A DNA stretch of 18,081 bases from Ignavibacteria bacterium UBA4661. GTDB taxonomy: Bacteria > Bacteroidota > Ignavibacteria > Kapaibacteriales > UBA4661. Below are positions 1 to 18,081 of this stretch, in pieces. The stretch lies in contig DHLT01000291.1 in assembly GCA_002405405.1 (NCBI GenBank), positions 1 to 18,081 on the forward strand, in the 5' to 3' direction. A program made the position numbers and the translations under genes. Every line of letters starts with the position of its first letter. Within the stretch, counting starts at the first letter, position 1. The notes under the pieces are model-generated. The model was not told where the DNA came from and searched no databases. It saw only the letters and a program-made list of their open reading frames with translations.

Positions 1-2
1 TG

Positions 3-242
3 ATACCCTACATTCGTGCGGAGCCACAAACCTTGCAGACGGCACTCGAAGATGTTATGATGGAGCAAGACTTTACAGCAATCATGCTTCATCTCAAGGA
101 ACTTTCAAGTTTGATCAATGATATGCAGAATACTTCGGAAAAAGAAAAGCTACAGATACTGTATGATGTTTTGCAAAGAGAAGCCTCAGCAGAGAATAAC
201 CTATTCTTTTCAAAATTTACGGATGCACTGCTGATAGCATAA
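3..242 (+). CDS. 3' end of an unidentified protein (partial, cut by left edge)
   Basis: An open frame enters from the left edge and ends at TAA 240-242, giving about 79 C-terminal residues beginning IPYIRAEPQTLQTAL. The only candidate start inside is a TTG at 33, and the frame is open upstream of it, so this is the tail of a longer gene and not a small gene. It is rich in helix-forming Leu, Glu and Lys and has no membrane segment. The opening IPYIRAEPQTL resembles the end of the nucleotide-binding half of GT4-type glycosyltransferases, and a polysaccharide cluster lies nearby on the other strand, but this is a guess. The next gene begins about 24 bases downstream on the same strand, so the two may be co-transcribed. 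Confidence 0.6.
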   Translation: MPYIRAEPQTLQTALEDVMMEQDFTAIMLHLKELSSLINDMQNTSEKEKLQILYDVLQREASAENNLFFSKFTDALLIA

Positions 243-266
243 TTTGCTACAGAAAGGAAAATGCTC

Positions 267-701: not shown

Positions 702-712
702 TTGCATACCGG
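688..712. terminator. Perfect 10-bp hairpin between convergent genes, stop codon in loop
   Basis: Left arm CCGGTATGCA (688-697), loop GTAAT (698-702) and right arm TGCATACCGG (703-712) are fully complementary. The TAA stop of the YqaA-like gene occupies 699-701, inside the loop. The hairpin lies just before the convergent desaturase 3' end (736). No T-run follows on either strand, so it is not a classical intrinsic terminator. It may act as a shared 3'-end stabiliser or a U-tract-less terminator. Confidence 0.5.
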
Positions 713-735
713 AGAACAACCACAATCGACAATAC

Positions 736-1737: not shown

Positions 1738-1874
1738 GGAAAATCTCTGAAAGTGGACGAGAAAAATGGTATGCACATGATGAAATACATAGCAACTTAC
1801 GGGAAACCTATGGAGGATGAGCAGGAATTCTTAGCAAAGAATATTGATACTTCCAATATGTGACAATATTGTTC

Positions 1875-4082
1875 TTACATCATACCGCTTTGCTTGCGCA
1901 ACCACCATTCCGCAGAGAATGCAAGAATGGCAAGAGCAACTGTCCAGAACGTTGTCCAGAGGGGGATTTCCTTCTGCTCGGTAATAGGTCGAGATACAAA
2001 ATTGGGTTCCGCAAGCATGGCTCGAAGTACTTCTTGAGGGTTGCATTCGTGTATAGGGATAAATTTCCCGCCGGTCTTGATTGCTATATCTTTTAAGAGT
2101 CGGTCATTCATACGTTGATCTTGATACTCAAGTGCAACATTGCCAATAGTGAAGCGTCCGGCATCTTCACCAAGGAGAGCGTCACGATATAATGCATTCC
2201 CTGAAAAGCTGTACTCGCCTGCGCGCAAACCTTGTACTTGCGCGGTGTAGCGACCGTTACCGATGCCGGTCAACAGAATATCGCGCTTATCATTTGCATT
2301 CGATGACCCAAGGAGGGAGAGTGTTACACGCACATCGGCATTATCGGCGGGTGTATAACTTTGGTCGTATACCTGCGCAACAATCTCAACCGGTTCGCCT
2401 TGTGCGTACACATCGCGTGTTGTAGCAATGCGCATGCGTTTGCCTTGATCGCCGGCAGTAATCCATCGTGCGGCATTATTCACAAAAAGCGAGAGAATAT
2501 CAGCAGACTCTTTGCCCTTGCTTCGATCGGCAGCAAATCCCATCAATCGCCAGCGGAAAAGCCCGTAGCCCAAGACGGCAAGAACTCGTGTTGATGCACC
2601 GGTACGTTGTAGAATCAGAGGTTCATTGACAGATGTCGAGCCAATACGAATAGTTGCCAATACTTCGGCTTCGGGTTTTGCACGTGCAAAGAGTTCGGTA
2701 CGAAAAATTGGAGGTAATGCCTCCCACTGTATCGCATCCTCATCAGCGCCTTGAATTTTCATAGCAGGCGAGCTGAGTGCTTTGGCTGTTACTTGTGCTT
2801 GTACCAAAACTTCTTGTTGCGAATTCGAGGCAACAGTAAAAGGTAAGTAATTATCAAAGACCCGTGCTTTTGCATAGTCTGTTTCGCGTGAAGCGATAAA
2901 AAGCAGGGGTTTATTGTGTGAAAGTTCTTCGGCAATCATGTCCATTGTGCTTGAACCGCTTTGAGCGGTAGGATAACCCACCATGATGATACACTCTGCC
3001 GCGCGAAGAATTTCGCGAGTCAGTGTACCTTCACGTCCGCCAAAGTCATAAAAAACATCACCTGTTTTCTGAACAAAGGCTTTGATCTCAGTAGAATTAT
3101 CACCTAGCAAATTCCGTATAAAGGAGACATCAGCAGATGGTGCACCACAAATCATGACAAAGGAGCGTTTGTCTTTGAGGACGCGGATAAAGCGCGCTAT
3201 GGTATTATTCTTTTCAGTCAATTCATTGGCAATAGGGACAATTTCAGCAGTAAGCTTACGTGTGCCATCGCTTGTAGGGGTGTAGGTGAATTGTACACTT
3301 TGCACTTCGTTGGCAGAGCGTGGCGTAATAATTTGTTCACCGATCGTGGTTGCATCATCTTTTAAAAGAACACGCAGAGAAGTTTGTGCAAAGCCAACGG
3401 AGCGAATATTGACAACTACGGGCGTAGGAACATTGCTGTATGCAATATCATTCGCAATAATTGATGTGAGTGCAATGTCTTTAGGCAAGGTTGTATCGCC
3501 GATGCCAATAGTCGTAATCGGGCGCGCCAGTATTTCTGCGGCATAGAGAGGATTATCACCGACATTATAGGCACCATCTGTAACAAGAAGAAGTGAACGG
3601 ACATTGGTACGATCTGCTGTCTTGCCAACTTCAGTAAGAGCTTGATGGATATTAGAGAACTGTCCCGTCAGTGTGATAGAGTCATTGGAAAACGAAGTCA
3701 ATTCTTGTGTGCCTGCGTCGAAGCGATACACGACAACTTTATTGCCAAGAGCACTCAGATTTGCGTTACGAAGAAATTCACGGTAGAGTTTTGTTCGATC
3801 AAAGGTTGCATCTTTCATGCCTGCCGACAACGAATTATCCAGCACAATGGCAAGGCGTGGTTCTTCTTCACGTGAGGATACAAGACGCAAAAGCGGTTCA
3901 CTTAAGATGAGAAGCATGATCCACAATCCTATCGTGCGTAAAGTGATGAGTACCCTACGTCGTGCATCGGTAATCGGCGGCACCGTAATGCGATAGCTGT
4001 ACCAAGCAATACAAGCAGAAGGCAGTGCCAGCAAAACTGCTACCCACCACAAAGTGCCAAAAATGAGAGTTGATGAAAACAT
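1875..4082 (-). CDS. Large membrane-anchored VWA-domain protein (BatA-like N-terminus, GATase-like middle)
   Basis: 735 residues. Two N-terminal membrane segments (about 6-30 and 44-67) precede a von Willebrand A domain (about 75-230) whose metal-site motif is LDNSLSAG (Asp82, Ser84, Ser86) with VTDG at Asp169. The next region (about 230-320) looks beta-sandwich-like. A stretch from about 320 to 420 (MICGAPSADVSFIRNLL to ECIIMVGYP) resembles the glutamine-amidotransferase-like fold found in other bacterial membrane VWA proteins. The C-terminus carries one more membrane helix (about 700-725) and a short charged tail. This architecture belongs to the Bat/aerotolerance-type and related envelope proteins, whose biochemical role is poorly defined. 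Neither a MoxR ATPase nor a DUF58 partner is adjacent, so it is not a standard bat operon. ATG 4082 is the first start and has no visible Shine-Dalgarno site. Confidence 0.8.
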   Translation of the reverse strand: MFSSTLIFGTLWWVAVLLALPSACIAWYSYRITVPPITDARRRVLITLRTIGLWIMLLILSEPLLRLVSSREEEPRLAIVLDNSLSAGMKDATFDRTKLYREFLRNANLSALGNKVVVYRFDAGTQELTSFSNDSITLTGQFSNIHQALTEVGKTADRTNVRSLLLVTDGAYNVGDNPLYAAEILARPITTIGIGDTTLPKDIALTSIIANDIAYSNVPTPVVVNIRSVGFAQTSLRVLLKDDATTIGEQIITPRSANEVQSVQFTYTPTSDGTRKLTAEIVPIANELTEKNNTIARFIRVLKDKRSFVMICGAPSADVSFIRNLLGDNSTEIKAFVQKTGDVFYDFGGREGTLTREILRAAECIIMVGYPTAQSGSSTMDMIAEELSHNKPLLFIASRETDYAKARVFDNYLPFTVASNSQQEVLVQAQVTAKALSSPAMKIQGADEDAIQWEALPPIFRTELFARAKPEAEVLATIRIGSTSVNEPLILQRTGASTRVLAVLGYGLFRWRLMGFAADRSKGKESADILSLFVNNAARWITAGDQGKRMRIATTRDVYAQGEPVEIVAQVYDQSYTPADNADVRVTLSLLGSSNANDKRDILLTGIGNGRYTAQVQGLRAGEYSFSGNALYRDALLGEDAGRFTIGNVALEYQDQRMNDRLLKDIAIKTGGKFIPIHECNPQEVLRAMLAEPNFVSRPITEQKEIPLWTTFWTVALAILAFSAEWWLRKQSGMM

Positions 4083-4175
4083 GAAGCAAGATAAAGGGGA
4101 GTTCGCAAATGATATTCTTTACGTGATATGTAGATCAGCTGACAGCATCCCTACGCTTATTGGTTGTTATCGTTT

Positions 4176-4877
4176 CTACAAGCCAAGTGCAAGCCGCCAC
4201 ACAATCCATGCCGCTTCGAAAATGATATTTTTGCTCATCTTCGAGGTACCACTACGCCGATCAACAAAAATGATAGGAATCTCTTTCAAACGGGCACCTG
4301 CTTTCCAAAGCTTGTAATTGATTTCAATCTGAAATGCATAGCCATTGGAATGAATACGATCTAATTTGATTGTACGAAGAAACTCTGTTTTGATTGCCTT
4401 AAAACCACCGGTTGCATCATATAACGGCAACCGTGTAATGAATCGTGTATACAAGTTTGCCGAGTAACTCAATATCAATCGGCGTAAGGGCCAGTTCACG
4501 ACGGTAACACCGCCATTGAGATAGCGTGAACCAATTACCACATCCCTATGTTCCAACTCACGTAAAAAATTTGGTATTTCTTGAGGATCATGAGAAAAAT
4601 CGGCATCCATTTCAAACACGACATCGTATCCACGATCCAAACCAAACTGAAAGCCCTCACAGTATGCTGTTCCTAAGCCAAGTTTACCGGCACGTTTGAG
4701 TAAGTGCACACGTGGATTGGCGCGTTGAATATCGTGTACAATATCAGCGGTGCCATCGGGCGAATTATCGTCAACAATCAGTATATCAACACTCTGCTCT
4801 GCCGAGAGAACTGCTTCAATAATTGCTGTGATGTTATCACATTCGTTATAGGTCGGTATAATGATAAGAGATTTCAA
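4176..4877 (-). CDS. Polyprenyl-phosphate mannosyltransferase-like glycosyltransferase (GT2, DPM1 type)
   Basis: About 233 residues of a single GT-A domain with no membrane helix. The motif series matches dolichol/polyprenol-monophosphate mannose synthases: IIIPTYNECDNI, VDDNSPDGTADI (nucleotide binding), EMDADFSHDP (Asp-x-Asp metal site), GSRYLNGG, ATGGFKAI and RRSGTSKMSK. Such enzymes transfer mannose or another hexose from GDP/UDP-sugar to a polyprenyl phosphate at the inner face of the membrane. The frame lacks any early ATG. TTG 4877 gives MKSLIIIPTYNE, the usual family N-terminus, while TTG 4901 would add eight residues. The stop is TAG. It follows the FkbM gene by a few dozen bases on the same strand, so co-transcription is likely and a role in lipid-linked sugar donor synthesis is inferred. 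Confidence 0.87.
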   Translation of the reverse strand: MKSLIIIPTYNECDNITAIIEAVLSAEQSVDILIVDDNSPDGTADIVHDIQRANPRVHLLKRAGKLGLGTAYCEGFQFGLDRGYDVVFEMDADFSHDPQEIPNFLRELEHRDVVIGSRYLNGGVTVVNWPLRRLILSYSANLYTRFITRLPLYDATGGFKAIKTEFLRTIKLDRIHSNGYAFQIEINYKLWKAGARLKEIPIIFVDRRSGTSKMSKNIIFEAAWIVWRLALGL

Positions 4878-4934
4878 TGCGGAGTAAAAAATAAAATGCA
4901 AGAAAACAAATGTGTACGATCAGGATTATAAATA

Positions 4935-5699
4935 TCAAGCCCATGTTTTTACGGCGCGGAGTGGACTGTGTTGCAAGACAAAGACGCAATCACATTGTGC
5001 AAGAGCATTATCATAGGGTCTGCGTAAGCTATCAGTAATATCATAAAGCACATAGCCATTCTCTGCCATCATGCCGATAATATCATGGATGATCGGTGCT
5101 TTCGGAAAAAACTCCATTAATCCGACTTCAATAATAAAAGCATGAGTTCTACCAAAACAAGAAGGCATGCCTTTGAGAACTTCCTTCTCAAATCCTTGAA
5201 CATCAATTTTGACAAGATCAGGAACAGCCAGTTTTTTTTCGTGAATGAGATTGTCAACAGTAACAATCGGCACAACTCTTCGCTCTAAGCCTTGTGTTGC
5301 AGGATCATTCCTGTCAGGTGAAAACGAACTTCCGGCGCGGTCTTCCCACACGGTTAGAGTGAGTTCTCCCGGTTCAGCACCTGCACCGGCAAGTAATGTT
5401 TGTGAAGCCGGAAAATCCTTAACAAATGCCGATAGATGTGGTTGCATTTCGTACTGTGGTTCAATTAAAAAGCACTGAGCATGGGGAAACGAGCGCATTG
5501 CCAAGCGACTCCATTCGCCACGATTTGCACCGACATCGAGAATTGTTGTTACCTGTACATGGTGTGCCTGAAGCTGACGAAAAAATGCTGTCAGTGCTTT
5601 TGCTCCGGGCTTGTGTGACTTATACCACTCCACCGCACGAAACACGGGCGCGCCTAGTATAGGATTGCGATAAAGAAATTGCTTGAGTGTTTGTGTCAT
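4935..5699 (-). CDS. FkbM-family SAM-dependent methyltransferase
   Basis: 254 residues. The SAM-binding motif I is ILDVGANRGEWS (about 53-64), followed by the acidic LIEPQ (78-82), VDNLI (148-152) and KIDVQGFEKEVLKG (164-177), the order and spacing typical of FkbM methyltransferases. Members methylate hydroxyl groups of sugars, polyketides or other small molecules. Beside a WbaP-type transferase and a GT2 enzyme, methylation of a surface glycan sugar is the likeliest job, though the substrate cannot be read from sequence. ATG 5699 is the first start. The stop is TGA. The 73 bases between it and the upstream wbaP-like stop contain no terminator, which fits one transcription unit. Confidence 0.88.
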   Translation of the reverse strand: MTQTLKQFLYRNPILGAPVFRAVEWYKSHKPGAKALTAFFRQLQAHHVQVTTILDVGANRGEWSRLAMRSFPHAQCFLIEPQYEMQPHLSAFVKDFPASQTLLAGAGAEPGELTLTVWEDRAGSSFSPDRNDPATQGLERRVVPIVTVDNLIHEKKLAVPDLVKIDVQGFEKEVLKGMPSCFGRTHAFIIEVGLMEFFPKAPIIHDIIGMMAENGYVLYDITDSLRRPYDNALAQCDCVFVLQHSPLRAVKTWA

Positions 5700-5772
5700 G
5701 ATCGTATGGCGTATATGCGTGTGTTGCTATCTTCTTCTTGTCATTGGATATTTTTATAATGGGCATAAGTTC

Positions 5773-7302
5773 TTATCCTTGCCCTTTACCTTGAAAAACT
5801 TTGACGACAGTTCGGAGAATAATTTCAATATCCAAGCGAAAGGACATATTCTCAATGTAATAGAAATCAAACTTCAAACGGTCGCGTACTTCATCGAGAG
5901 AGTCTTCATAGCCATCATTTTGTACTTGCCACCAGCCCGTTAAACCCGGTCGTACTTTTAGTCGGCGTGAATAGTAGGGTACTTCTTGAGTAAATTTTTC
6001 AACAAACATCGGGCGTTCAGGTCGTGGACCGACCACTGACATATGACCAACAAAAATATTCCAAAACTGAGGTATTTCGTCAAGGTGGGACTTACGCAAA
6101 AAACGACCAATCGGTGTAACGCGAGGATCATTCATCTTTGCCCATTGTGGCCCAAGTTTTTCAGCATCGGTACGCATAGAGCGAAATTTCCACATTTTGA
6201 AAGTCTTGCCATCTTTGCCGGAGCGTTCTTGCCCATAGAAAATTGGACCGGGCGATGTAAAGCGCACAGCGCAACCAATGATGAGATAAAGTGGTAAGCC
6301 AAAAAGCATTGCACACCCACTCAAAGCAATATCGAGCAGTCGTTTTGCAATGGCTTCCCATGGCTTCATGAGTTGTGTGCTGATTTCAATGAGAGGTACG
6401 CCATAGAGTTGAAATGTTCGCGCTTGCCCCATAAAAATGTCATATAAGTCGGGTTGAATTTTGACATTGATATCCATGGTTTCACATTCCCATGCAATGC
6501 CAAGTAATTCATCATGATTGTGATGGCGCAAAGCAATAATAGCTTCGGTAGGTTTATACTCGCGAATAATATCTTGTAGTTGCGGCAGTATGCCGAGTAC
6601 AGGAGCATAAGAAAATTCTTGTGTATTCTGTTGCCATGAAGCAATCTCCGCTTCGTTATGCAAGACAACCCCCTGCACACGATAGCCATACCACCGGAAG
6701 TGTTTGAGCGATGTCAGGACATCGGCGACGCGCTCGGCATCGCCAATAACAAGAGCAGGAATACGAATGATACCTCGTCTGCGTAAACGACGTTGGAGTG
6801 CACGTGCAAGAGATCGACCGGCGATCAACAGCAATGCCATGAAGATCCAGTACAAAACAATAATCAATCGTGAAATACCTGCACGCTTAAAGTCATCATC
6901 AAAGTAAATAACAAGCATTAACAGCAGGCATCCATAAAACGAAATACGTACTAAACTGAATGCTTCATCAAAAGGAGAACGAATGAACCAATTTTTATAC
7001 ATACCGGCAAGCCAAAAGAGCAGCGTCCAATAGATGGTCATCGTCAGCATCATTTGGTAGGGAATTGCCATCGTACCGAGTGTGATTGATGTACCCGGCA
7101 CTTCAACCGGCATTGCGGGAAGATAATCAGGATGGAGTAGGGCTGAGAACCACCCTGTGCGAAAACGCATAAAGTAGTACAAAGCAAATCCAGCCGATGT
7201 CGCAATGACATCAGCAACAAACTGAAACAGCCACGGAGGAAGCGTCAGTATGCGTTGTATCGAAGAAGGTGTAGAATGTGCTGTAGCCAAGGGATGAGAC
7301 AT
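5773..7302 (-). CDS. Undecaprenyl-phosphate glycosyl-1-phosphate transferase (WbaP/WcaJ-type, polyisoprenyl-phosphate hexose-1-P transferase)
   Basis: 509 residues. The N-terminal third has several hydrophobic helices (for example LFQFVADVIATSAGFALYYF). A middle nucleotide-binding-like CoA_binding_3 region follows (around RIPALVIGDAERVADVL). The C-terminal bacterial sugar transferase domain spans about 320-509, with KRLLDIALS, TSPGPIFYGQERSGKDG, KFRSMRTDAEKLGP, GRFLRKSHLDEIPQFWNI, MSVVGPRPE and VRPGLTGWWQV. These are hallmark motifs of enzymes that move hexose-1-phosphate from UDP-sugar to undecaprenyl phosphate, the first step of exopolysaccharide or O-antigen repeat-unit assembly at the inner membrane. 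ATG 7302 (MSHPLATAHS) was preferred over the longer frame to 7413, which runs back into the upstream terminator. A possible promoter lies at 7346-7375. It probably heads the wbaP-fkbM-GT2 unit. Confidence 0.92.
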   Translation of the reverse strand: MSHPLATAHSTPSSIQRILTLPPWLFQFVADVIATSAGFALYYFMRFRTGWFSALLHPDYLPAMPVEVPGTSITLGTMAIPYQMMLTMTIYWTLLFWLAGMYKNWFIRSPFDEAFSLVRISFYGCLLLMLVIYFDDDFKRAGISRLIIVLYWIFMALLLIAGRSLARALQRRLRRRGIIRIPALVIGDAERVADVLTSLKHFRWYGYRVQGVVLHNEAEIASWQQNTQEFSYAPVLGILPQLQDIIREYKPTEAIIALRHHNHDELLGIAWECETMDINVKIQPDLYDIFMGQARTFQLYGVPLIEISTQLMKPWEAIAKRLLDIALSGCAMLFGLPLYLIIGCAVRFTSPGPIFYGQERSGKDGKTFKMWKFRSMRTDAEKLGPQWAKMNDPRVTPIGRFLRKSHLDEIPQFWNIFVGHMSVVGPRPERPMFVEKFTQEVPYYSRRLKVRPGLTGWWQVQNDGYEDSLDEVRDRLKFDFYYIENMSFRLDIEIILRTVVKVFQGKGQG

Positions 7303-7345
7303 GAAGTACTCAGTCGAAATCAGTACAAAGAATGATTGCGTGAGA

Positions 7346-7375
7346 ATAGTATGCAAAAATAAACCTTGCGTACAA
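7346..7375 (-). promoter_or_regulatory. Candidate promoter for the wbaP-like gene
   Basis: On the minus strand, TTGTAC (7375-7370) is followed after 18 bases by TACTAT (7351-7346), each two mismatches from the sigma-70 hexamers. It lies between the terminator at 7398-7429 and the wbaP-like ATG at 7302, giving a leader of about 35-40 bases. The position is right but the match is modest, and FCB bacteria may use different promoter elements. Confidence 0.35.
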
Positions 7376-7397
7376 GTGCGCGTAGTTTGATAAACAC

Positions 7398-7429
7398 AAA
7401 AAAAATCGCCCACAAATACATGTGAGCGA
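7398..7429 (-). terminator. Intrinsic terminator (minus strand) after the HAD-VWA-MCP unit
   Basis: Reading the minus strand, TCGCTCACA (7429-7421), loop TGTATT, then TGTGGGCGA (7414-7406) form a 9-bp stem with one G-T wobble, followed at once by eight T residues (7405-7398). This is a textbook Rho-independent terminator. It lies about 120 bases beyond the chemotaxis-gene stop and upstream of the wbaP-like start, so it separates two minus-strand transcription units. Confidence 0.88.
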
Positions 7430-7547
7430 CAAATATACTCAATACCTTATTCTTCTGCCTGATGCAATGGTGCTTTTTCCGTGTATTATTTGGATAGGGT
7501 AGAATCTTATTCAAGTAAGTTATGCGCCCCTTGTATTACGCACACCA

Positions 7548-9152
7548 CTAACGATTATCTCGTACTACCATGCCACTTGTTTGTGCAAAAGGATTACCCT
7601 GTGTAACGGCTTTATAGTAGTCATCGAATTTTAATCCGCGCTGGTCGGGAGAAATACGAAACATTGAAGCAGTTTCCTTTTGATCAGAAGCAATCGCATT
7701 CAAATCATCCATTGTGTGGGAGATGGTTTGAACAGAGTCGGCAATATCCTGTGTTACTGACGAGATCATCCGTGATACCTCAAGTACCGTGCTACTGAAT
7801 CGTTCTGATTGGTTACGTTGTGATACAATGCCACTCAAAACTTCGCTGGCAAGAGCAATGACGGAAGCAGAATTCATATGAATTTGTGTTGCTTGTGTGG
7901 CATAGGTTAAACCACTATCAACACGATTATTGCCGGTGTTGATAGTAGATACAGCATCGGCAGTTTTGGCTTGAATATCACGAATCATAACCGATATTTG
8001 CTTCGTGGCTTTGGCAGTGCGCTCTGCAAGTTTACGCACCTCATCGGCAACAACTGCAAAGCCGCGTCCCTGTTCGCCGGCACGTGCCGCTTCGATAGCT
8101 GCATTCAGGGCAAGGAGATTCGTTTGATCGGCAATTTCTTCAATCACTAAAATGATCTCACCGATTTGGTCACTGCTATTACCAAGCATTTCGACTGTTT
8201 TTGCCGCATGATTAACGACGCTGGCTATTTCGCGAAACTCTCCTAACATATTATCAAAAAGTTGTTTGCTGTTTTCTGTAACGGCATCAGTTGCACTGAT
8301 AGAATCAACGACATGTTGGGCGGCTTCACTGCTACTTACATACAGACGATGAAAGTTTTCCATGCCATGAACAATTTGCTCCATTTGATTAGACAGTGTT
8401 GCAATTGTTCCTGCGATTGACTGCGTGCTGTTGCGTATAGAGTTGGCATCATCGCTGACACGATCCGACAATTCTTGAATTTCGGTAATAACTTCGCGTA
8501 ATGTATTGACAGTATTTTGTGTAGCTACGAGTAAGCCGGATGCCTCATCTGATTTGGTTTGCTCATTGACAATAGTTTGGCATAAATCGCCTTTTTGTAC
8601 AGCAAGCATGAGGGCGGACAGACGACGGAGTGTTTCATCTTGTTGTGCTTGTTGTGCAAGCGCGCCATTTTTGGTGTTTTCCGATGAAAAAAACATATTC
8701 TCCATGCGTGCAAATTTCTCTTCTGCTTGCTGATGTTTGCGAGCATTGTCTTGTGTAATAATGTCAAGCAACGCCGCAGATCCTGACCATGTTGGGTGTG
8801 CTGAAGCGTGTAATTTAGTTGCTGTATTGTCGGCAATAGCCGTGGTAAAACGTTCCATGAGGTCATCATAACGCGCTTTCTCACGCGCAAGCAATCGACC
8901 AAGAACAATACTACCGATTGAACATGTCAGCAAAAGTGTTATTAGTGGGATATAAGGCGTATCGCTTGTCATGATCATTACAACACTCATGGCTACAAGC
9001 ACGGGGATAATGAGAGCGTACAGCGTATAGCGAAAGAGCAAAGAAGTATTTATAATAGATTTGCACAAAATCAAAAAAGAAGTACCAGTGTAGTACGGTT
9101 GTTGCTGATAGAAAATAGAAGTTTTTACTGAATTTCTTTTGTAATCATTCAA
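7548..9152 (-). CDS. Methyl-accepting chemotaxis protein with minimal extracytoplasmic region
   Basis: 534 residues. Two membrane helices lie close together (about 38-61 and 67-86), leaving only a few exposed residues, so there is no classical ligand-binding sensor domain. A HAMP-like helical segment follows near [18 protein letters not shown], then a long coiled-coil signalling domain containing the highly conserved hairpin [19 protein letters not shown] and [17 protein letters not shown], which contacts CheA/CheW. No C-terminal NWETF-like CheR/CheB tether is present; the protein ends GMVVRDNR. The start is uncertain: the first in-frame ATG is inside TM1 (residue 55), and TTG 9152 keeps TM1, so TTG was taken. 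The stop is TAG. It follows the VWA gene by about 33 bases on the same strand. It may sense membrane or cytoplasmic state; no other che genes are in the window. Confidence 0.9.
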
Positions 9153-9185
9153 TTGTATGCAGATTTCTCCCGAGAAAAGGCGTAA

Positions 9186-10811
9186 TCATCGTTTTTTACG
9201 GATACTTCGACGGACGCGTTTACCGCGATGGCGTAGTTGCTGAAGCAAAATTTTGGCACGGCGCAGTTTACGCTTAACAATATGCTTGAAAAGCATCAGC
9301 CATGATGATTTTTTCCGCGAGCTGCCACCATGGAGCAAAGCAGAAATACGTTTGTTGTCGAGCGAATTAAACTGACTATTGTACTCCTCGTCTTCTTCTT
9401 TGCCCATAATAGCTTCAATCGATGAACGCAATTTGCTCATGGCATCATCCAAACGGTCGGAAGCAGTTTTATTGTAGGGTTGAACAAACTGCAAGTGATC
9501 AAGCAAAAGAGCAGCTTGCTTTACATCATCGGCATGGGGATGTTCTGTAAGGCGCTGTTCCATTTGTTCTGCTAAACTTTCAAGTTCTGCAATGCGATAG
9601 TCGCTCAAAGCAAACACTTCATACGGATTGATGTCTTGTATTTCAATGAAGATGCTGGATAGTTCTTGAATTTCTTTGCCATATTCTTGCAGGGCGCGCT
9701 GCATGATTTTACCTTCGGCAGTTGTGTATTGTTCATGGACGCTGGCGAGTTGAGCTTGCAGTGCATGGCGGCGAGCATCGCTTTTGGTTTTGCTCATTTC
9801 ACGGCGAATTTCGTCTTCGCGATTGAGCAGTGTTTGTGCGTACTTTGCTTGATCAGAGCCACCTTTGCGAATAATATCAGTGGTATAACTTTTCGGTGGC
9901 GCAATAGAGTCATTACCGATTTTAATGGTATTCAGGGTAATAGTATCACCCAATAATTGACCAATAGCACGCTTATCAATATGGACTGCGCCATCGGTAA
10001 TGAGAAGAATTTCAGCATTATCCGCGCCTGCTTGGAGCAAACCTGAGCGAATATCTTGTACTGCTTGTGTGAGTGCTTTGCCCAATGCCGTGCCATTTCC
10101 CAGTTTGGTAATGTTCATCATGTCGTAAATCAATTCACGGAATCCACGCTGATCGCGTGCAATGCGAAGTGCGCCAACCTCGATGTCGAAGGTGCGGAAA
10201 TATACAGTGCCGAGTTCTTTCATGTTGTGTTTCAGAAAGATATAGGCAATTGCCTTGGCAAGGTGCATGCGATAGTGCGCAATCATCGAACTTGATGTGT
10301 CGAGTAGAACAAACACTTGTTGCTTGCGATAGTCGGGTTCAAAGTCGCTGCTGTCTTTATCGAATTTGAAATTACGAGGTTCGACTGCTCGCGGCATCCA
10401 CAGCGAACGCTCGGCAAGTTTTTGATAAAAAATATCATCGGGGAGTAGGTATTGGTGGGGATATAATCGCTGAACATCGCGCACACTGCTGATGAGATGC
10501 GCTTGATATTCCTCCGCTGCAGTAAAAACAGGCACCGGCGGTTTGGCACTTTTTTGTTGGGGCTTATGCGTTGCATCATTGCGATATAGGATCGGCGAGA
10601 GCTTTTGTGCAAGCGGATGACAGGCTGTGTCGAGTACACGTGCTATGTCATAGACAAGGGTAAACTCCGGCGGCAGTGTTTCTTGAATAGCATCAAAAAA
10701 TCCGAATGCTTCCATTGCCCGAAAAAATGTTGCTGCCGTATACGTCGTATTCGTCAGTGAACGTGGCTGGGTTGTATCGTGTGTCGAAGCTATGTTTTTG
10801 GTTTCTGCCAT
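9186..10811 (-). CDS. VWA-domain protein with coiled-coil and strongly basic C-terminal tail
   Basis: 541 residues from ATG 10811 (MAETKNIAST); a TTG six codons earlier is less likely. There is no signal peptide or membrane helix, so it is probably cytoplasmic. A helical N-terminal region (about 25-160) precedes a VWA domain with an intact metal-ion site: LLDTSSSM (Asp171, Ser173, Ser175), GNGTALG (Thr241) and ITDG (Asp273). A charged helical or coiled-coil region (about 335-470) follows, and the last 35 residues are very rich in Lys and Arg (KRKLRRAKILLQQ, GKRVRRSIRKKR), suggesting nucleic-acid or membrane-surface contact. The layout recalls ViaA/CoxE-type VWA partners of MoxR/RavA ATPases, but no AAA ATPase is adjacent, so the assignment stays at domain level. 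It follows the HAD gene by about 21 bases and precedes the MCP gene. Confidence 0.78.
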   Translation of the reverse strand: MAETKNIASTHDTTQPRSLTNTTYTAATFFRAMEAFGFFDAIQETLPPEFTLVYDIARVLDTACHPLAQKLSPILYRNDATHKPQQKSAKPPVPVFTAAEEYQAHLISSVRDVQRLYPHQYLLPDDIFYQKLAERSLWMPRAVEPRNFKFDKDSSDFEPDYRKQQVFVLLDTSSSMIAHYRMHLAKAIAYIFLKHNMKELGTVYFRTFDIEVGALRIARDQRGFRELIYDMMNITKLGNGTALGKALTQAVQDIRSGLLQAGADNAEILLITDGAVHIDKRAIGQLLGDTITLNTIKIGNDSIAPPKSYTTDIIRKGGSDQAKYAQTLLNREDEIRREMSKTKSDARRHALQAQLASVHEQYTTAEGKIMQRALQEYGKEIQELSSIFIEIQDINPYEVFALSDYRIAELESLAEQMEQRLTEHPHADDVKQAALLLDHLQFVQPYNKTASDRLDDAMSKLRSSIEAIMGKEEDEEYNSQFNSLDNKRISALLHGGSSRKKSSWLMLFKHIVKRKLRRAKILLQQLRHRGKRVRRSIRKKR

Positions 10812-10832
10812 ACTAGTCTGTTGCGACAATGA

Positions 10833-11555
10833 TTATTCTATAGCATATGCTTCCATACGAAGAAGATGAGCTTGATGCCTCTGCTTGAGGCGCGGCTTAT
10901 CAAGTTCTTTTATCAGTAAACGCCGAACATCATTAAGAGACGAAAATTGATAATGAGGAATATGATGCTTATTGCAATATGCTGCCAATGTTTTTTTTGC
11001 AAAGACAATATCGGCATGTTGTGCCGCGCAAAAATCAGAGTATCCATCGCCAACATAAACAATGATGCTGTTAGGATGAGCCGAACGCAGTACGGTATTG
11101 CGCTTGCACGAAGCGCAAAAGCAAGAGCATGACTCGTCGCTGTAGGGGAATTCCGGTTGAATTTTGCCATCATGTTGTACCAATCGATTGGAATAAACAG
11201 GTACATCGATATTCTCAGCTTGTAGTAGTGGTCGAATATACTCGGCAAAACCATCGCTGACAATGGTGAATGCTATCTGCTCTGCATTGCACCAAGCAAG
11301 CAACGGATGAATAGTCGGATCAAGACGATGCTCTAAGGCAAAGTGAGCAATATCCGCTAATGTTAGCTCTGCCGGAAGTAATGAACAGAGTTCGCGCCAA
11401 TAGCGGTGGATGGGCAGATTTTCTTCTTTGAGTTTATGTTGGTATTCGGCAAAAGTAGAATATCCGGCAAACCGAATGAAAACTTCATCGCCCAAGTCGT
11501 GAAGAGCAATCGTACCATCGAAATCGCAAAAAATATGAAGTCGCGGAAAATGCAT
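10833..11555 (-). CDS. HAD-family phosphatase (HAD-IB, MtnX/phosphoserine phosphatase-like)
   Basis: 240 residues. Motif I is FCDFDGTIA (nucleophile and acid Asp), motif II is FTIVSDGF, the motif III Lys is probably in CKRN, and motif IV is VGDGYSDFCAA. These are arranged as in subclass IB HAD phosphatases such as phosphoserine phosphatase and the methionine-salvage enzyme MtnX. The cap region carries a dense cysteine run, SCSCFCASCKR. The true substrate is not readable from sequence. ATG 11555 (MHFPRLHIFCDFDGT) was chosen because catalytic motif I begins a few residues in; the frame extends to 11612 with an unlikely hydrophobic leader. It is the first gene of the minus-strand HAD-VWA-MCP series and is divergent from the rrf2-suf operon. 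Confidence 0.85.
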   Translation of the reverse strand: MHFPRLHIFCDFDGTIALHDLGDEVFIRFAGYSTFAEYQHKLKEENLPIHRYWRELCSLLPAELTLADIAHFALEHRLDPTIHPLLAWCNAEQIAFTIVSDGFAEYIRPLLQAENIDVPVYSNRLVQHDGKIQPEFPYSDESCSCFCASCKRNTVLRSAHPNSIIVYVGDGYSDFCAAQHADIVFAKKTLAAYCNKHHIPHYQFSSLNDVRRLLIKELDKPRLKQRHQAHLLRMEAYAIE

Positions 11556-11865
11556 AGACAAGGCACAGGAAAACCGGAGGAAGAAAACGTATAGGAGTAT
11601 AGACGTGCACAAAACGCAATCTATCTAATCACACAACAATGACAAGAATTTTAAATCCGACTATAATAGTCGTATATTTGTCGAGTAAGAAGTTGTGATT
11701 GTTTTTTAAGGGGTAGGGTCGCAAGTGTACCATAACGCCCAATGTTGGATGGGGTGTCGATTTCTTACACAGTTTTCGTGCTGAAAGAGCGAAGGACAAA
11801 GAGCCGGATAATGTCTGCTTTAGTCACGGTGAAGTATTTGTTTTTGTTTGTTTCGTTGTTGGTTC
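11556..11865. other. 310-base divergent intergenic region
   Basis: This stretch separates the divergent HAD and rrf2 genes. It holds the strong plus-strand promoter with embedded palindrome (11639-11677) and a leader of about 190 bases before rrf2. In the leader, ACGCCC (11735-11740) can pair with GGGTGT (11752-11757) as a short stem. Toward the HAD gene, a TATACT (minus strand, 11601-11596) could be a -10 element without a good -35. No RNA gene was recognised. Confidence 0.6.
11639..11677 (+). promoter_or_regulatory. suf operon promoter with IscR type-1-like operator over the -10 box
   Basis: ATGACA (11639-11644, one mismatch from TTGACA), a 17-base spacer, and a perfect TATAAT (11662-11667) make a strong sigma-70-type promoter. 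The -10 lies inside the perfect 15-bp palindrome CGACTATAATAGTCG (11658-11672). The surrounding sequence (11653-11677) fits the core YYGACTRWWWYAGTCRR of the E. coli IscR type-1 site, as I recall that consensus, at 21 of 25 positions by eye. The first downstream gene encodes an Rrf2 regulator with cluster-ligand cysteines, so repression by the holo-protein blocking RNA polymerase is the natural reading. Initiation is expected near 11674. Confidence 0.72.
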
Positions 11866-12327
11866 ATGCTTCGATTATCACGTAAAGTTGAATATGCACT
11901 GATTGCTCTGCAAGTTATGGCGGAACGGTATGATCAGGTTGTGTCTGCCAAAGAGATTGCTGATGAGCATGATATTCCCTTAGAGTTTTTAGCAAAAGTA
12001 TTGCAGTCGCTTGCCAAACTGAATGTCATTGTCTCGCAGCAAGGTGTACGCGGTGGGTATATGCTAGCGCAGGCACCGCATACTGTTACAGTCCTTTCGA
12101 TTATCGAAGCAATGGAGGGCAAGCCTGCATTGGTTGATTGTTGCGACGAAACATCGGATACGCTTTGTCGCATGAGCCAACAGTGTAGTATTCAAGACCC
12201 TCTGCAGAAAGTTAATCATGCAATTACCGGTGCGCTGCATGCGCTTACGCTGCAAGAACTTTCGCAGAAAAAACAATCGAAGCGTATTAGTGCGCAACGC
12301 TCTGCTTTGGTGCAGGTGTCGTTGTAG
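11866..12327 (+). CDS. Rrf2-family Fe-S transcriptional regulator (IscR/SufR-like) of the suf operon
   Basis: 153 residues. It opens with MLRLSRKVEYALIALQ, the standard Rrf2 first helix. A winged helix-turn-helix (about 27-70) follows, with AKEIADEHDIPLEFLAKVLQ and the wing VRGGYMLA. The cluster-binding loop has Cys92, Cys93, Cys101 and Cys107, close to the Cys92/98/104 pattern of IscR, so a [2Fe-2S]-type cluster is likely. ATG 11866 was chosen because it matches the family N-terminus; a TTG at 11848 only adds six atypical residues. No Shine-Dalgarno site is visible. It is the first gene of the suf operon and sits downstream of an IscR-like operator, indicating cluster-dependent autorepression. 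The stop is TAG, followed at once by a hairpin with a T-run. Confidence 0.9.
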   Translation: MLRLSRKVEYALIALQVMAERYDQVVSAKEIADEHDIPLEFLAKVLQSLAKLNVIVSQQGVRGGYMLAQAPHTVTVLSIIEAMEGKPALVDCCDETSDTLCRMSQQCSIQDPLQKVNHAITGALHALTLQELSQKKQSKRISAQRSALVQVSL

Positions 12328-12329
12328 TG

Positions 12330-12359
12330 TCTGACAGCGCGTACTGTCTAGAATTTTTT
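12330..12359 (+). terminator. Possible attenuator/terminator hairpin between rrf2 and sufA
   Basis: GACAG (12333-12337), loop CGCGTA and CTGTC (12344-12348) form a stem. It can be extended by TCT/AGA across one bulged T, and TTTTTT follows at 12354-12359. The stem is short, so partial termination is more likely than a full stop. This would set a higher level of regulator message relative to sufABCD. Confidence 0.45.
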
Positions 12360-12421
12360 GTCGTCAGAATATTTCAATTGCAGTTTTTCAATTCCAGTAT
12401 CATTTTTCAAGACTTTTTTCT

Positions 12422-12426
12422 AGGAG
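12422..12426 (+). promoter_or_regulatory. Ribosome binding site of sufA
   Basis: AGGAG lies 9 bases before ATG 12436. It is among the clearest Shine-Dalgarno sequences in the window and shows that sufA is still presented to ribosomes as a normal gene despite its amber codon. Confidence 0.7.
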
Positions 12427-12435
12427 AGCAATATC

Positions 12436-12768
12436 ATGGTTGATCTTGCAGAACCAACACTCGACAAACAAATTGTTACCGTTCCCATTGCTATGAGTGG
12501 TGCCGATGACGAAGATAATCTCAAACTCACCGGCAAAGCAATTGAGGAAGTCAAAAAAATCAAAGGACAGAACAATATTCCGGAGCATTATGGTCTGCGA
12601 ATGGGAGTAAAAGGAGGCGGCTGTTCGGGCTTTACCTATACACTTGGTTTCGATGCAGAGCCACGTGAGAACGACAAAGTTCTTGTTGCCGAAGACATTC
12701 GCGTATTCGTTGATCCGAAAAGTTTGTTCTATCTCATGGGGGTAGAGCTTGATTTTACTGATGGTTAG
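12436..12768 (+). CDS. sufA: SufA/IscA A-type Fe-S carrier, truncated by in-frame TAG
   Basis: 110 residues to a TAG at 12766-12768. After a roughly 28-residue acidic N-terminal extension, the A-type carrier fold is clear: LTGKAIEEVKKI, YGLRMGVKGGGCSGFTY (Cys63, first cluster ligand), DIRVFVDPKSLFYLMGVELDF. A-type carriers bind clusters through this Cys plus a C-terminal Cys-x-Cys, and hand clusters from SufBCD to apo-proteins. Here the reading frame is stopped at residue 111, where homologues have a Leu in Asp-Gly-Leu-Asn-Gly. The same frame then encodes the missing tail with Cys127 and Cys129 up to TAA 12841-12843. The full product would be 135 residues. Either the gene is newly inactivated, the codon is read through, or the base is a sequence error; TTG to TAG is one base change. 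It sits between rrf2 and sufB. Confidence 0.85.
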   Translation: MVDLAEPTLDKQIVTVPIAMSGADDEDNLKLTGKAIEEVKKIKGQNNIPEHYGLRMGVKGGGCSGFTYTLGFDAEPRENDKVLVAEDIRVFVDPKSLFYLMGVELDFTDG

Positions 12769-12843
12769 AATGGACGTGGATTTACCTTTAACAATCCCAA
12801 TGCTACCAAAACCTGCGGTTGCGGTTCGTCGTTCGGCGTGTAA
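12769..12843 (+). other. Detached in-frame C-terminus of sufA beyond the amber codon
   Basis: Reading on after TAG in the same frame gives NGRGFTFNNPNATKTCGCGS followed by SFGV and a TAA. This is the canonical A-type carrier C-terminus with the CGCG cluster-ligand pair. The frame has no shift and no second stop, and there is no in-frame start with which to translate it alone. Conservation of the tail argues that the interruption is recent, tolerated by readthrough, or not real. Confidence 0.85.
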
Positions 12844-12903
12844 TGTGTCATTCGTTCACGGTGTTTTTTCTCTTATCTCATTGCACAATTACGGGGAATC
12901 GTC

Positions 12904-14352
12904 ATGGCAAAAGAAAATATGGAAATTTTAGATGAGGTCGTCAGCAGTGAATACAAGTATGGCTTTGTTACTAATATCGAGCAAGAGATTGCTCCGGTAG
13001 GTTTGAATGAAGACATTGTGCGTATGATTTCCGCAAAAAAAAATGAACCGGAATGGATGCTTGAATGGCGTTTGAAAGCATATCGCCAATGGCTCACGAT
13101 GAAAGAGCCAACATGGCAGAATGTAACATTCCCGGCAATTGATTATCAAGCAGTGTCATACTATGCCGCACCGAAGCAAAAGGCGAAGTACAACAGTTTA
13201 GAAGAAGTCGATCCGGAGATGCGCGCGACTTTTGATAAACTCGGCATTTCGATGGACGAGCAGAAACGATTGTCAGGTGTTGCCGTTGATTTTGTGATGG
13301 ATAGCGAATCTGTCATGACATCATTCAAAGAAAAACTTAAAGAACTCGGCATCATTTTTTGCTCCATTAGCGAGGCAATCAAAGAATATCCGGAACTTCT
13401 GCAAAAGTATATCGGTACGGTAGTGCCGGTTACAGATAACTACTTCGCTGCTTTGAATTCTGCTGTTTTCAGTGATGGTTCCTTTGTGTATATCCCCAAA
13501 GGTGTGCGATGCCCGATGGAGCTCTCGACATACTTCCGCATCAATGCGGAAAATACGGGGCAATTTGAGCGTACTCTCATCGTTGCTGATGAAGGAAGTT
13601 ATGTTAGTTATTTGGAGGGATGTACTGCGCCAATGCGTGATGAGAATCAGCTTCATGCGGCAGTTGTAGAATTAATTACGATGGATAATGCCGAAATCAA
13701 GTACTCGACCGTACAAAATTGGTATCCGGGCGACAAAGACGGCAAAGGTGGTATTTACAATTTTGTAACGAAGCGTGGTATATGCCAAGGGATGAATTCC
13801 AAAATCTCATGGACACAGGTCGAAACAGGGTCCTCAATCACGTGGAAGTATCCAAGCGTTGTGCTGAAAGGTGATAATTCGGTGGGTGAATTTTATTCTG
13901 TTGCCGTAACCAACAATCATCAGCAAGCTGATACCGGTACCAAAATGTTACACATCGGTAAAAACACCAAAAGTCGTATTGTATCGAAAGGTATCTCTGC
14001 CGGTGTATCGCAGAATAGCTATCGCGGTCAAGTCCGTATCAACAAAACAGCCGAAAATGCACGCAATTTTTCACAGTGTGATTCACTCTTGATAGGTGAT
14101 CAGTGTGGTGCACATACATTCCCCTACATTGAAGTTGGTAATGCCAGCGGTACGGTGGAGCATGAAGCAACAACATCAAAAATTAATGAGGATGTTCTTT
14201 TCTACTTCAATCAACGTGGTATTGATACCGAGCAAGCTATTGCAATGGTTGTGAATGGTTATGCAAAAGAAGTCATGAATCAATTACCGATGGAATTTGC
14301 CGTCGAAGCGCAAAAACTGCTTGCTGTTTCGCTCGAAGGAAGCGTTGGATAA
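12904..14352 (+). CDS. sufB: SufB, Fe-S cluster assembly scaffold subunit
   Basis: 482 residues, the normal SufB length. SufB with SufC2 and SufD forms the scaffold complex on which SUF clusters are built. Diagnostic segments are [51 protein letters not shown], and the C-terminal [20 protein letters not shown], whose Cys392 matches the essential Cys405 of E. coli SufB, followed by EHEATTSKI and [23 protein letters not shown] 12904 has GGGGA six bases upstream. It starts 60 bases after the end of the extended sufA frame and shows no defect, so the rest of the operon appears intact. The stop is TAA. Confidence 0.97.
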
Positions 14353-14465
14353 CGCTGTGCTGATGTATCGGAGTAGAGTACGGAATATACTGTACGAGAT
14401 AGTGAATAATTCAACAAATAAGCTACGAATAACTTTATCTATTATTTCAAGGGGACATAGTGTCT

Positions 14466-15227
14466 ATGCTCACAATTAACAATCTTCAAGCATCGGTCGA
14501 AGGCAAAGAAATCCTCAAAGGTATTTCCCTCGATATTAAAGCGGGCGAGGTTCATGCTATCATGGGTCCGAACGGTTCAGGAAAATCAACCTTAGCATCC
14601 ATTCTTGCCGGTCGCGAAGACTATGAGATTACCGGTGGTTCAGTCGAGTTTCAAGGCAAGGACTTGCTTGAAATGGCACCTGAAGAGCGCGCCAATGAAG
14701 GTGTTTTTCTTGCATTTCAATACCCTGTGGAAATTCCGGGTGTCAGTAACACCAATTTTCTCCGTGCGGCTGTCAATGAGAAGCGTAAATATCAAGGATT
14801 AGAACCGCTTGAGTCGAAAGACTTTTTGAAAATGATGCGTGAGCGCATGAAGATCGTGGAAATGGATCAAGCTATGGTGAGCCGCTCAGTCAATGAGGGA
14901 TTCTCCGGTGGTGAGAAAAAACGCAATGAAATCTTTCAGATGGCAATGCTCGAACCAAGTCTTGCTGTCCTTGACGAGACGGATTCCGGTCTTGATATTG
15001 ATGCTTTGAAAATCGTTGCCAATGGTGTCAATCAACTACGCTCACCAGAGCGATCATTTGTGGTGATTACACATTATCAACGTTTGCTGGATCATATCGT
15101 TCCTGATTATGTGCATGTCTTGTACAAAGGTCGTATCGTTAAATCGGGCGGTAAAGAACTTGCCCTCGAACTTGAAGAAAAAGGATATGACTGGGTAAAA
15201 GAATTAGACGTAGAAGAGGTGGCATAG
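14466..15227 (+). CDS. sufC: SufC, ABC-type ATPase of the SufBCD complex
   Basis: 253 residues. It has all the ABC motifs: Walker A GPNGSGKST (about 34-42), Q-loop FLAFQYPVEIPGVS, signature FSGGEKKRNEIFQ, Walker B LAVLDETDSGLD, and switch His in VVITHYQRLLDHI. The LDETDSGLD and YPVEIPGVS wording is specific for SufC. It powers conformational change of SufB-SufD during cluster assembly and is cytoplasmic. ATG 14466 gives MLTINNLQASVEGKE, the usual N-terminus; GTG 14460 is an alternative, and AAGGGGA at 14449-14455 could serve either. The 107 bases after sufB hold no terminator. It ends in TAG one base before the sufD ATG, which suggests translational coupling. Confidence 0.96.
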   Translation: MLTINNLQASVEGKEILKGISLDIKAGEVHAIMGPNGSGKSTLASILAGREDYEITGGSVEFQGKDLLEMAPEERANEGVFLAFQYPVEIPGVSNTNFLRAAVNEKRKYQGLEPLESKDFLKMMRERMKIVEMDQAMVSRSVNEGFSGGEKKRNEIFQMAMLEPSLAVLDETDSGLDIDALKIVANGVNQLRSPERSFVVITHYQRLLDHIVPDYVHVLYKGRIVKSGGKELALELEEKGYDWVKELDVEEVA

Positions 15228-15228
15228 T

Positions 15229-16575
15229 ATGAGCGCGTCTACCATGACTCTTCAAGAAAAATTGCATCTCGACTTTGGTCTGTTTGAGCAACAACTCAAC
15301 GGACAAAGCAAGTCCTCTGTGCATCAAATTCGCAAAGCCGCAATGGAACGTTTTGCTGTATTGGGCTTCCCGACCATTCGACATGAGGAATGGAAATACA
15401 CGAACATTATGCCTATTGTTGCGCACGAATTTCATGCATTGCCCACAGCAACACACATAACAGCGACAGATGTCGACAGCTTCCGCATTAGTGGCTTCTC
15501 AGGTTCTTTGGTCGTGGTTGAGAATGGTCTTTTTCGTGCAGATCTTTCCATCATTCACCCACAAGAAGGCGTTGAGGTGCTTTCTTTTGCTGATGCTATT
15601 GCCAAACAGCATTCTGCGCTTGAACATTTCAGTGCTCATGCAAAGTTTGATCATGAAGCATTACTCGCGCTCAACACTGCATTTGCACGTGATGGAGTAG
15701 TGGTGCAAGTTGCACGCAATGTATCTGCTGAACAACCAATACATGTGATGTACATCAATGATGCTCGTGCACAGAATGTCATGAGTAATCCTCGTGCATT
15801 GGTCGTTGTGAACGAAAGTGCACAGGTAACGGTTATAGAAACCTTCCATACTATTGGTACAGAGCGTAGCTGGTTTAATCTCGGTTTTGAGGCAGTAGTT
15901 GCGCCGAATGCGGTGCTCTCTCACGATCGTTTGCAGGACGATAAAGCACAGACAACGATAACAACATCAACATCCGTTGCACAAGATCGTGATAGTAAGT
16001 ATCATTCAGTGTGTGTGGCATTGCAAGGTGGTTTGGTTCGCAATAATCTTAGCAGTGCTCTTAAGGGTAAAGGTGGTCATGCAGATTTTATTGGTTTGTA
16101 TATGCCAACCGGTAAAACCTTAATTGATAATCATACCGTGGTTGATCATGCTGTTGCGCATTGCACGAGTAATGAATTGTACAAAGGTATTTTGGATGAG
16201 CGTGGTACAGGTGTGTTTAATGGTAAAATCTTTGTTCGCAAGGATGCACAAAAAACACAAGCATACCAATCGAACCGTAATATTTTACTCTCCAATACAG
16301 CAACTATCAATACAAAGCCCCAGCTTGAAATCTTTGCCGATGACGTGAAATGTAGTCATGGTGCGACATCAGGTCAGCTCGATGAAACTTCACTCTTCTA
16401 TCTTCGTGCTCGTGGTATCGGCAAGGAGAAAGCGCGCGCCTTATTACTATATGCTTTTGCGGAGGAAATTGTCCAGCAATGTGCTAATGCAGCCTTGCAA
16501 GCACATATTGAACATCGTGTGGCAGAACTTTTACACCAAGAGCAAGAACTATTGACTGACAGCGACAACGACTAA
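15229..16575 (+). CDS. sufD: SufD, Fe-S cluster assembly subunit
   Basis: 448 residues. It partners SufB and SufC in the scaffold complex and is linked to iron acquisition. N-terminal IRHEEWKYTNI is a common SufD landmark. The C-terminal half is the beta-helix core, with ELYKGILDERGTGVFNGKIF, DAQKTQAYQSNRNILLS, and DVKCSHGATSGQLDE, whose Cys375 and His377 correspond to the Cys358/His360 region of E. coli SufD. The end ARALLLYAFAEEIV is typical. ATG 15229 is one base after the sufC stop. The N-terminal half is more divergent, as usual for SufD. The stop is TAA, followed by 125 bases before the next gene. Confidence 0.95.
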   Translation: MSASTMTLQEKLHLDFGLFEQQLNGQSKSSVHQIRKAAMERFAVLGFPTIRHEEWKYTNIMPIVAHEFHALPTATHITATDVDSFRISGFSGSLVVVENGLFRADLSIIHPQEGVEVLSFADAIAKQHSALEHFSAHAKFDHEALLALNTAFARDGVVVQVARNVSAEQPIHVMYINDARAQNVMSNPRALVVVNESAQVTVIETFHTIGTERSWFNLGFEAVVAPNAVLSHDRLQDDKAQTTITTSTSVAQDRDSKYHSVCVALQGGLVRNNLSSALKGKGGHADFIGLYMPTGKTLIDNHTVVDHAVAHCTSNELYKGILDERGTGVFNGKIFVRKDAQKTQAYQSNRNILLSNTATINTKPQLEIFADDVKCSHGATSGQLDETSLFYLRARGIGKEKARALLLYAFAEEIVQQCANAALQAHIEHRVAELLHQEQELLTDSDND

Positions 16576-16599
16576 AATAATATCGAACACGGGAGCCGC

Positions 16600-16628
16600 A
16601 TGACTATTCAAGCGGCGCTTCTTATATT
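16600..16628 (+). promoter_or_regulatory. Weak candidate internal promoter before the barrel-like gene
   Basis: ATGACT (16600-16605), 17 bases, then TATATT (16623-16628) could be sigma-70-type hexamers, with a -35 similar to the suf promoter ATGACA. Initiation near 16635 would give a leader of about 65 bases. A small GCCGC/GCGGC stem (16595-16616) overlaps it. There is no IscR-like palindrome here, so this would be an unregulated secondary start for the last genes. Confidence 0.25.
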
Positions 16629-16700
16629 CGATAAGATGTGCACACCTTTGTGCCACCAGAAACACTTTTTTTGCATCATCCCGGAGAAATAGGAAGTAGT

Positions 16701-17420
16701 ATGATTGTACGTTTCGTTCTTCTCGTGTGTTGTTTTTTATTAGATCTGAGTTGCAGCGTATATGCGCAAAGTACATCAATCTATATCGGCACTGCTCTTC
16801 GGACTACATTGAATTATCAAAATACAGTTCTCACCGAAACTCGTTTACAAGTAGGCATGCCCGATATTGTTGTCGGTATGAATATTCCCTTTGATAGGAT
16901 GTCAGATGTTAGCGGACAGTTCGAATATGGGTATGCTTCGTATGCAACAAAAAATATCGAAGGTGCACCGTTGAATTTGATTGTTCCTCGTTTTTTAATG
17001 CAAACATCGTTGCAATATCATACACTCAAGATTGGTTTAGGATTAACGAATCTTGGTTTTAACGGTGCTATTAACTTTGGTGGAAAAATCGGTCTTCCCG
17101 CTCGTGGTGAGTATCGAAGCGGCATGGACATTTTTCAGACAGGGCGTATTTTTTCAGGAGATTCTACTGTGCAGGTTGCTACGCAAAACATGCAAATGCT
17201 AATCGAGATGTACCTTTCCGGAACATATCGGGTTGCGCGTATAGGAGGGCAGCCACTCGATCTGCGTTTAGAGTTGGGCTATGTCTTCGGTGAATTGCTC
17301 CGTAGAAATTTGCCGCTGGATGTTTTGGGGCAGCAAGGATTGCTTGGTTATCGTACCTTAGGTATCCAACCCATTACGGTTTCACTTGGTTTGCTATGGA
17401 CACTTCCGCTTGCATTGTAA
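16701..17420 (+). CDS. Secreted or outer-membrane beta-barrel-like protein inside the suf operon
   Basis: 239 residues; not recognised as a named family. The N-terminus MIVRFVLLVCCFLLDLSCSV followed by YAQ is a good signal peptide, probably cleaved after Ala22. The mature part alternates hydrophobic and polar residues with many Gly and Tyr (SIYIGTALRTTLNYQN, VSGQFEYGYASYAT, YHTLKIGLGLTNLGFNG, ITVSLGLLWTLPLAL), as expected of a small outer-membrane barrel. No Cys lies in the mature chain, so it is not a cluster protein itself. ATG 16701 was chosen over a longer frame from 16638 because it begins the signal peptide and has GGAGAAATAGGAAG just upstream. It sits 125 bases after sufD and 61 bases before sufS, an unusual place for an envelope protein. 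Confidence 0.7.
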   Translation: MIVRFVLLVCCFLLDLSCSVYAQSTSIYIGTALRTTLNYQNTVLTETRLQVGMPDIVVGMNIPFDRMSDVSGQFEYGYASYATKNIEGAPLNLIVPRFLMQTSLQYHTLKIGLGLTNLGFNGAINFGGKIGLPARGEYRSGMDIFQTGRIFSGDSTVQVATQNMQMLIEMYLSGTYRVARIGGQPLDLRLELGYVFGELLRRNLPLDVLGQQGLLGYRTLGIQPITVSLGLLWTLPLAL

Positions 17421-17481
17421 TGATGTCCTTTGGTTGATTCACCTAGTTCCTTCGACTTTTTTTCTTGTTTTTCCTGACTCT

Positions 17482-18081
17482 ATGATTAGTTCTCAAAACC
17501 TTAATACGGTATCGAATCCGACCGATGTGCAATTGCCACAACCATATGATGTACGCGCATTACGTGCAGAATTTCCTATTCTGGCTCGTACCATTCATGG
17601 TAAGCCCTTGGTGTATCTCGACAATGCCGCAACGACACAGAAGCCACAAGCAGTTATTGATGCGATGGTACGGTATTACAGCGAATACAACAGCAATGTG
17701 CATCGTGGTATTCATACACTTAGCCAAGAAGCGACCGCGGCGCATGAGCACGTACGCGAGCATGTACGAAGCTTTATCAATGCTCGAAGCGACAAAGAAA
17801 TTCTTTTTGTTCGCGGAACGACAGAAGCAGTAAATATCATTGCACATTCTTTCGGAAAATATACCATTCAGCCGGGCGATGAAATTATTCTAGGTGCTAT
17901 GGAGCATCACTCCAACATCGTTCCATGGCAAATGATGTGCGAGGCGCATGGCGCCATTTTACGGGTTATTCCCATTAATGATGCCGGTGAATTGCTGTTA
18001 GATGAGTATCGTGCATTGCTGACACCACGAACAAAACTCGTAGCAATTACTCATGTGTCGAATACATTAGGAACAATTAAT
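17482..18081 (+). CDS. sufS: SufS cysteine desulfurase (partial, cut by right edge)
   Basis: The first 200 residues of a group II cysteine desulfurase, a PLP enzyme that takes sulfur from cysteine for SUF assembly. Diagnostic segments are VYLDNAATTQKPQAVIDAM, NSNVHRGIHTLSQEAT, FVRGTTEAVNIIAHSFG, GDEIILGAMEHHSNIVPWQ and LVAITHVSNTLGTIN. The His of HHSN contacts the cofactor; the PLP lysine and catalytic Cys lie beyond the edge. There is an N-terminal extension of about 22 residues (MISSQNLNTVSNPTDVQLPQ) ahead of the usual start near YDVRALRAEFPIL. ATG 17482 is the first in-frame ATG and has no clear Shine-Dalgarno site. It follows the barrel-like gene by 61 bases without a hairpin, so it is probably still in the suf transcription unit. 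Confidence 0.95.
   Translation, partial: MISSQNLNTVSNPTDVQLPQPYDVRALRAEFPILARTIHGKPLVYLDNAATTQKPQAVIDAMVRYYSEYNSNVHRGIHTLSQEATAAHEHVREHVRSFINARSDKEILFVRGTTEAVNIIAHSFGKYTIQPGDEIILGAMEHHSNIVPWQMMCEAHGAILRVIPINDAGELLLDEYRALLTPRTKLVAITHVSNTLGTIN

Follow-up and report, generated by a model that had tools for sequence, protein, structure and literature searches.

An in-frame amber codon interrupts the sufA gene in a stretch of 18,081 nucleotides from Ignavibacteria bacterium UBA4661 (assembly GCA_002405405.1, contig DHLT01000291.1, positions 1 to 18,081 of the forward strand; hereafter the window) and raises the question of whether the gene has recently been lost, is read through to give two forms of its product, or is merely misrepresented in the assembly. 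These three options were put forward in the original prediction, which was made from the sequence alone, and are examined here with the help of homologous proteins, related genomes, the decoding machinery and a survey of other interrupted genes in the same assembly.

Translation of the sufA frame (12436-12843, forward strand) gives 110 residues, a TAG, a further 24 residues and a TAA. The 110 codons that precede the in-frame TAG (12436..12768, stop included) were identified by translation and Pfam as those of an A-type Fe-S carrier; the TAG itself lies at 12766..12768, and the frame continues intact on the same strand through 24 codons, including those for Cys127 and Cys129, to the TAA (12769..12843). 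The position of the stop, the open tail and the numbering of Cys63, Cys127 and Cys129 are thus as originally described. All three Cys lie within the full frame, and the Cys-Gly-Cys motif is absent from a product ending at the TAG. The Fe-S_biosyn domain (PF01521) is matched from profile positions 3 to 87 of 110 in the cut product (45.1 bits) and from 3 to 109 in P0001, its best protein match (68.5 bits), both scores being above the cut-off of 26.3. The interruption is real in the given sequence; its biological meaning is a separate matter.

The genomic setting is that of a suf operon. An Rrf2-family regulator (11848..12327, PF02082) lies 5' of sufA, and sufB (12904..14352, PF01458), sufC (14460..15227, PF00005, with TAG as its stop) and sufD (15229..16575, PF01458 and PF19295) follow directly 3' of it, all on the forward strand. 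The rest of the operon is free of lesions, with open frames and the Pfam domains present. The regulator carries several Cys in its C-terminal half, a trait of IscR-like Fe-S sensors. Among the 15 genes taken from the window, TAA is the stop codon in seven, TAG in five (sufA included) and TGA in three, and a check of these stops agreed with the earlier statement that TAG ends the rrf2, sufC, MCP and GT2 genes.

A protein search covering about 5.8 billion proteins yielded 7,997 scored candidates, 7,994 of them passing, with a listing of the best 120; the high-scoring SufA homologues among the matches listed include those of Candidatus Kapaibacteriota and Bacteroidota. The best match, P0001, has 135 residues and, compared at the protein level, is identical to the window's sufA frame at 134 of 135 positions, the single difference being a Leu at position 111, where the window has the TAG. 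It sits on another contig, as its length of 24,802 bases differs from the 18,081 bases of the window and the window itself yields a separate 110-residue entry (P0003). A Leu is also found at this place in P0002, which is identical to P0001 at 119 of 135 residues. The expectation that homologues carry Leu at the TAG site holds for 119 of the best 120 of the 7,994 matches, the sole exception being P0003, the cut product of the window. The neighbouring protein encoded at 16701-17420 of the window occurs with an identical sequence on two contigs, of which the longer has 24,802 bases. The VWA neighbour (9186-10829) falls into a cluster with two members, whose representative is confined to the 18,081-base contig, and for this reason the two contigs may stem from truly differing strains.

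In the wider survey, a SufA match was found in 58 of the 61 genomes searched, the own genome included, and thus in 57 of the 60 relatives; each of the nine same-family relatives has one match. In none of the 57 matching relatives is there a stop at this position of sufA, and the codon there is a Leu codon in 39 of 39 other loci fitting the tail search motif, a count that left out loci not fitting the motif, such as L009 and L030. Conservation of the TAG in close relatives, proposed as a check in the original prediction, was therefore not observed, P0001 and P0002 having Leu and the 57 genomes no stop. Stops within the SufA match occur in the own genome and two relatives (G049 and G057); the TAA in the latter two was considered as a parallel case and rejected, being the natural end of the gene right after the Cys-Gly-Cys. 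As the 60 relatives contain no second genome of the same genus, P0001 and P0002 constitute the closest evidence.

The decoding machinery of the genome was also examined. Release factor 1 (prfA) was detected above the cut-off with its frame open; absence or breakage of this factor is a criterion for global reassignment of the codon only. A search with the tRNA model RF00005 gave 19 matches, 18 of them above its cut-off, and at 17 of these 19 loci ARAGORN predicted a gene. These represent 16 distinct genes, because the loci L126 and L129 give one and the same Leu gene. Visual inspection identified the match at L128 as a Leu (CAA) tRNA gene cut off by a contig end, that at L130 as probably an Asn (GTT) tRNA and the one at L129 as a Gly (GCC) tRNA. 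This Gly-type match (L129:922-991, C19) has two N inside and lies about 130 bases 5' of the tRNA-Leu gene. The suggested search for an amber suppressor tRNA thus returned no CUA anticodon among the 19 tRNA matches of a genome that is about 71% complete, and given this completeness such a tRNA could sit in the missing part. No Rfam match was obtained in the window, and the 135-base segment beginning with the stop forms no stable fold (z = +1.68, with 194 of 200 shuffles folding at least as well). A stimulatory RNA structure 3' of the stop is not required in every case of readthrough.

Other in-frame stops were sought in the own genome (G000), which comprises 3,060,074 bases in 334 contigs and is 70.74% complete and 1.94% contaminated. 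The sample consisted of every eighth contig from C1 to C313 (n=40; 328,405 bases, including 11,010 N), to which contig C222 and the window were added, and the target was stops flanked on both sides by coding-like sequence. Eight candidates had a codon score above 0.08, and a Pfam domain extends across the stop in four of the eight. Single in-frame TAA codons lie inside the Pfam domains of an Hsp33 (L145:983, C41) and an acyl-CoA dehydrogenase (L171:8102, C249) and inside the GIY-YIG domain of a UvrC-like gene (L170:3478, C241); the fourth case is a response regulator domain at a contig end with one in-frame TAG (L138:4841, the same site as C222:4841). Since C222 had been picked because of its stop, the unbiased count of Pfam-supported stops is three, all of them TAA. 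In the remaining four candidates the stop is not spanned by a Pfam domain. One is a TAG between coding-like stretches of a sortilin-like gene (L174:2006, C273), and those at L177, L172 and L162 have the appearance of gene ends. A TAA at L143:7030 was set aside, its upstream score being below the threshold and the site appearing by eye to be the end of one gene with a new start after it.

The same procedure applied to 20 stretches of a same-family relative (G002) also gave eight candidates above 0.08, so that the codon score alone does not separate the two genomes. The domain-across-stop test does, with none of the eight control candidates having a Pfam domain across the stop, though the control is a weak one in that six of the eight lack any Pfam match. 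The census also overlooks cases, sufA itself having scored -0.02. Response-regulator matches are interrupted in 1 of 51 instances in the own genome and in 0 of 145 in the relatives G002 and G008 combined. The assembly thus contains single in-frame stops repeatedly; their rate is not high, as none of 41 ABC-domain matches in the own genome contains a stop, and they are not amber-specific, as all three stops with Pfam support in the systematic sample are TAA. The TAG in the response regulator had been considered as a sign of amber decoding, a view that was rejected when the wider census gave TAA interruptions too.

The probable cost of losing the carrier also bears on the question. According to PMC6006206, conservation of the three Cys in A-type carriers is strict, and structures suggest a coordination mode unlike the old three-Cys model. 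In Escherichia coli, double mutation of iscA and sufA is lethal in air (PMC2682760). The search for a second A-type carrier, another check that had been proposed, found none, there being one match in the genome at its completeness of about 71%. The genome has one NifU-type C-terminal domain, which might take the place of SufA as a cluster carrier. Loss of SufA would be expected to be costly, which would favour either an error or a mutation of very recent date.

The TAG does not represent a regulatory feature; it is probably a single-base consensus error, in base calling or assembly, in a fragmentary draft assembly, and we infer error as the cause instead of a real mutation in the sequenced strain on several grounds: the near-identity of P0001 with its Leu at 111 and the identical neighbour on two contigs, the other mid-domain stops of the assembly (three TAA and one TAG) as against none among the eight control candidates, the response regulators cut here and not in two relatives, and an intact remaining operon together with the sole A-type carrier match of the genome. 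A normal sufA in a normal suf operon would then have had the TAG introduced into its consensus by a single base, and in the living population the gene would most likely encode a conventional A-type carrier of 135 residues that has Cys63, Cys127 and Cys129. Counted against this reading are the uninterrupted ABC domains, the VWA cluster, which may hint at differing strains, and the fact that natural pseudogenes would produce an identical stop census. It is possible, if less probable, that a genuine nonsense mutation of very recent origin, confined to the strain or to part of the population, has left a product without the Cys-Gly-Cys and made sufA a fresh pseudogene. One codon being the whole difference from the intact copy, the undecayed tail, as a recent event predicts, and the further interrupted genes in the same assembly all agree with such a mutation, and the NifU-type domain, if it carries clusters, could compensate for it. 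It is less easily reconciled with the absence of another A-type carrier from the approximately 71% of the genome that is represented, with the single SufA match found in each of the nine same-family relatives, with a remaining operon that bears no lesion and with the cost of carrier loss where this was tested (the E. coli double mutant of PMC2682760). The tentative division between consensus error and private mutation rests on the recurring interruption of conserved genes.

Both of these readings, the fresh pseudogene and the preferred error, survive from the original set of three, which was narrowed by the Leu in P0001, the sense codon in relatives and the TAA identity of all three systematic-sample stops; readthrough of the amber codon, programmed or suppressor-mediated, giving a short and a full-length SufA, gained no positive support and is very improbable. 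The intact tail frame would suit it, as would the second in-frame TAG in the response regulator and the candidate TAG in the sortilin-like gene, and a suppressor tRNA could be missing from so incomplete a genome. An otherwise identical copy has Leu, however, no such stop occurs in the 57 other genomes with a match, every stop with Pfam support in the systematic sample is TAA, none of the 19 tRNA matches has CUA, release factor 1 is present with an open frame, and the window offers neither an Rfam match nor a stable fold after the stop. The specific version in which a real TAG is partly read by a suppressor tRNA from the missing part of the genome, so that short and full SufA coexist, is likewise highly unlikely. 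No paper title among the 15 listed of 75 literature matches concerned readthrough in sufA, and further searches found no paper; amber control of a cluster carrier, if true, would have been new, and the evidence runs against it. With several conserved genes of this assembly carrying single in-frame stops, claims of gene loss or recoding based on it should be backed by reads or a second assembly.

Compared with known systems, the locus resembles amber recoding by suppressor tRNA, pyrrolysine or programmed readthrough in having a sense-like TAG in an intact frame, and differs from it in that the nearest copy lacks the TAG, no CUA tRNA was found, release factor 1 is intact and TAA is the codon at the other stops that have Pfam support in the systematic sample. 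With SufA and other A-type carriers (IscA, ErpA; PF01521) it shares the domain, the family's three Cys (in the full frame) and a place next to sufB, sufC and sufD, and departs from them in the one TAG 5' of the Cys-Gly-Cys in the window's frame, which the copy on the other contig does not have. No difference was seen from the nonsense errors or private nonsense mutations of draft assemblies, which have the same single stop in an intact frame, missing from the nearest copy, with other conserved genes of the assembly cut likewise.
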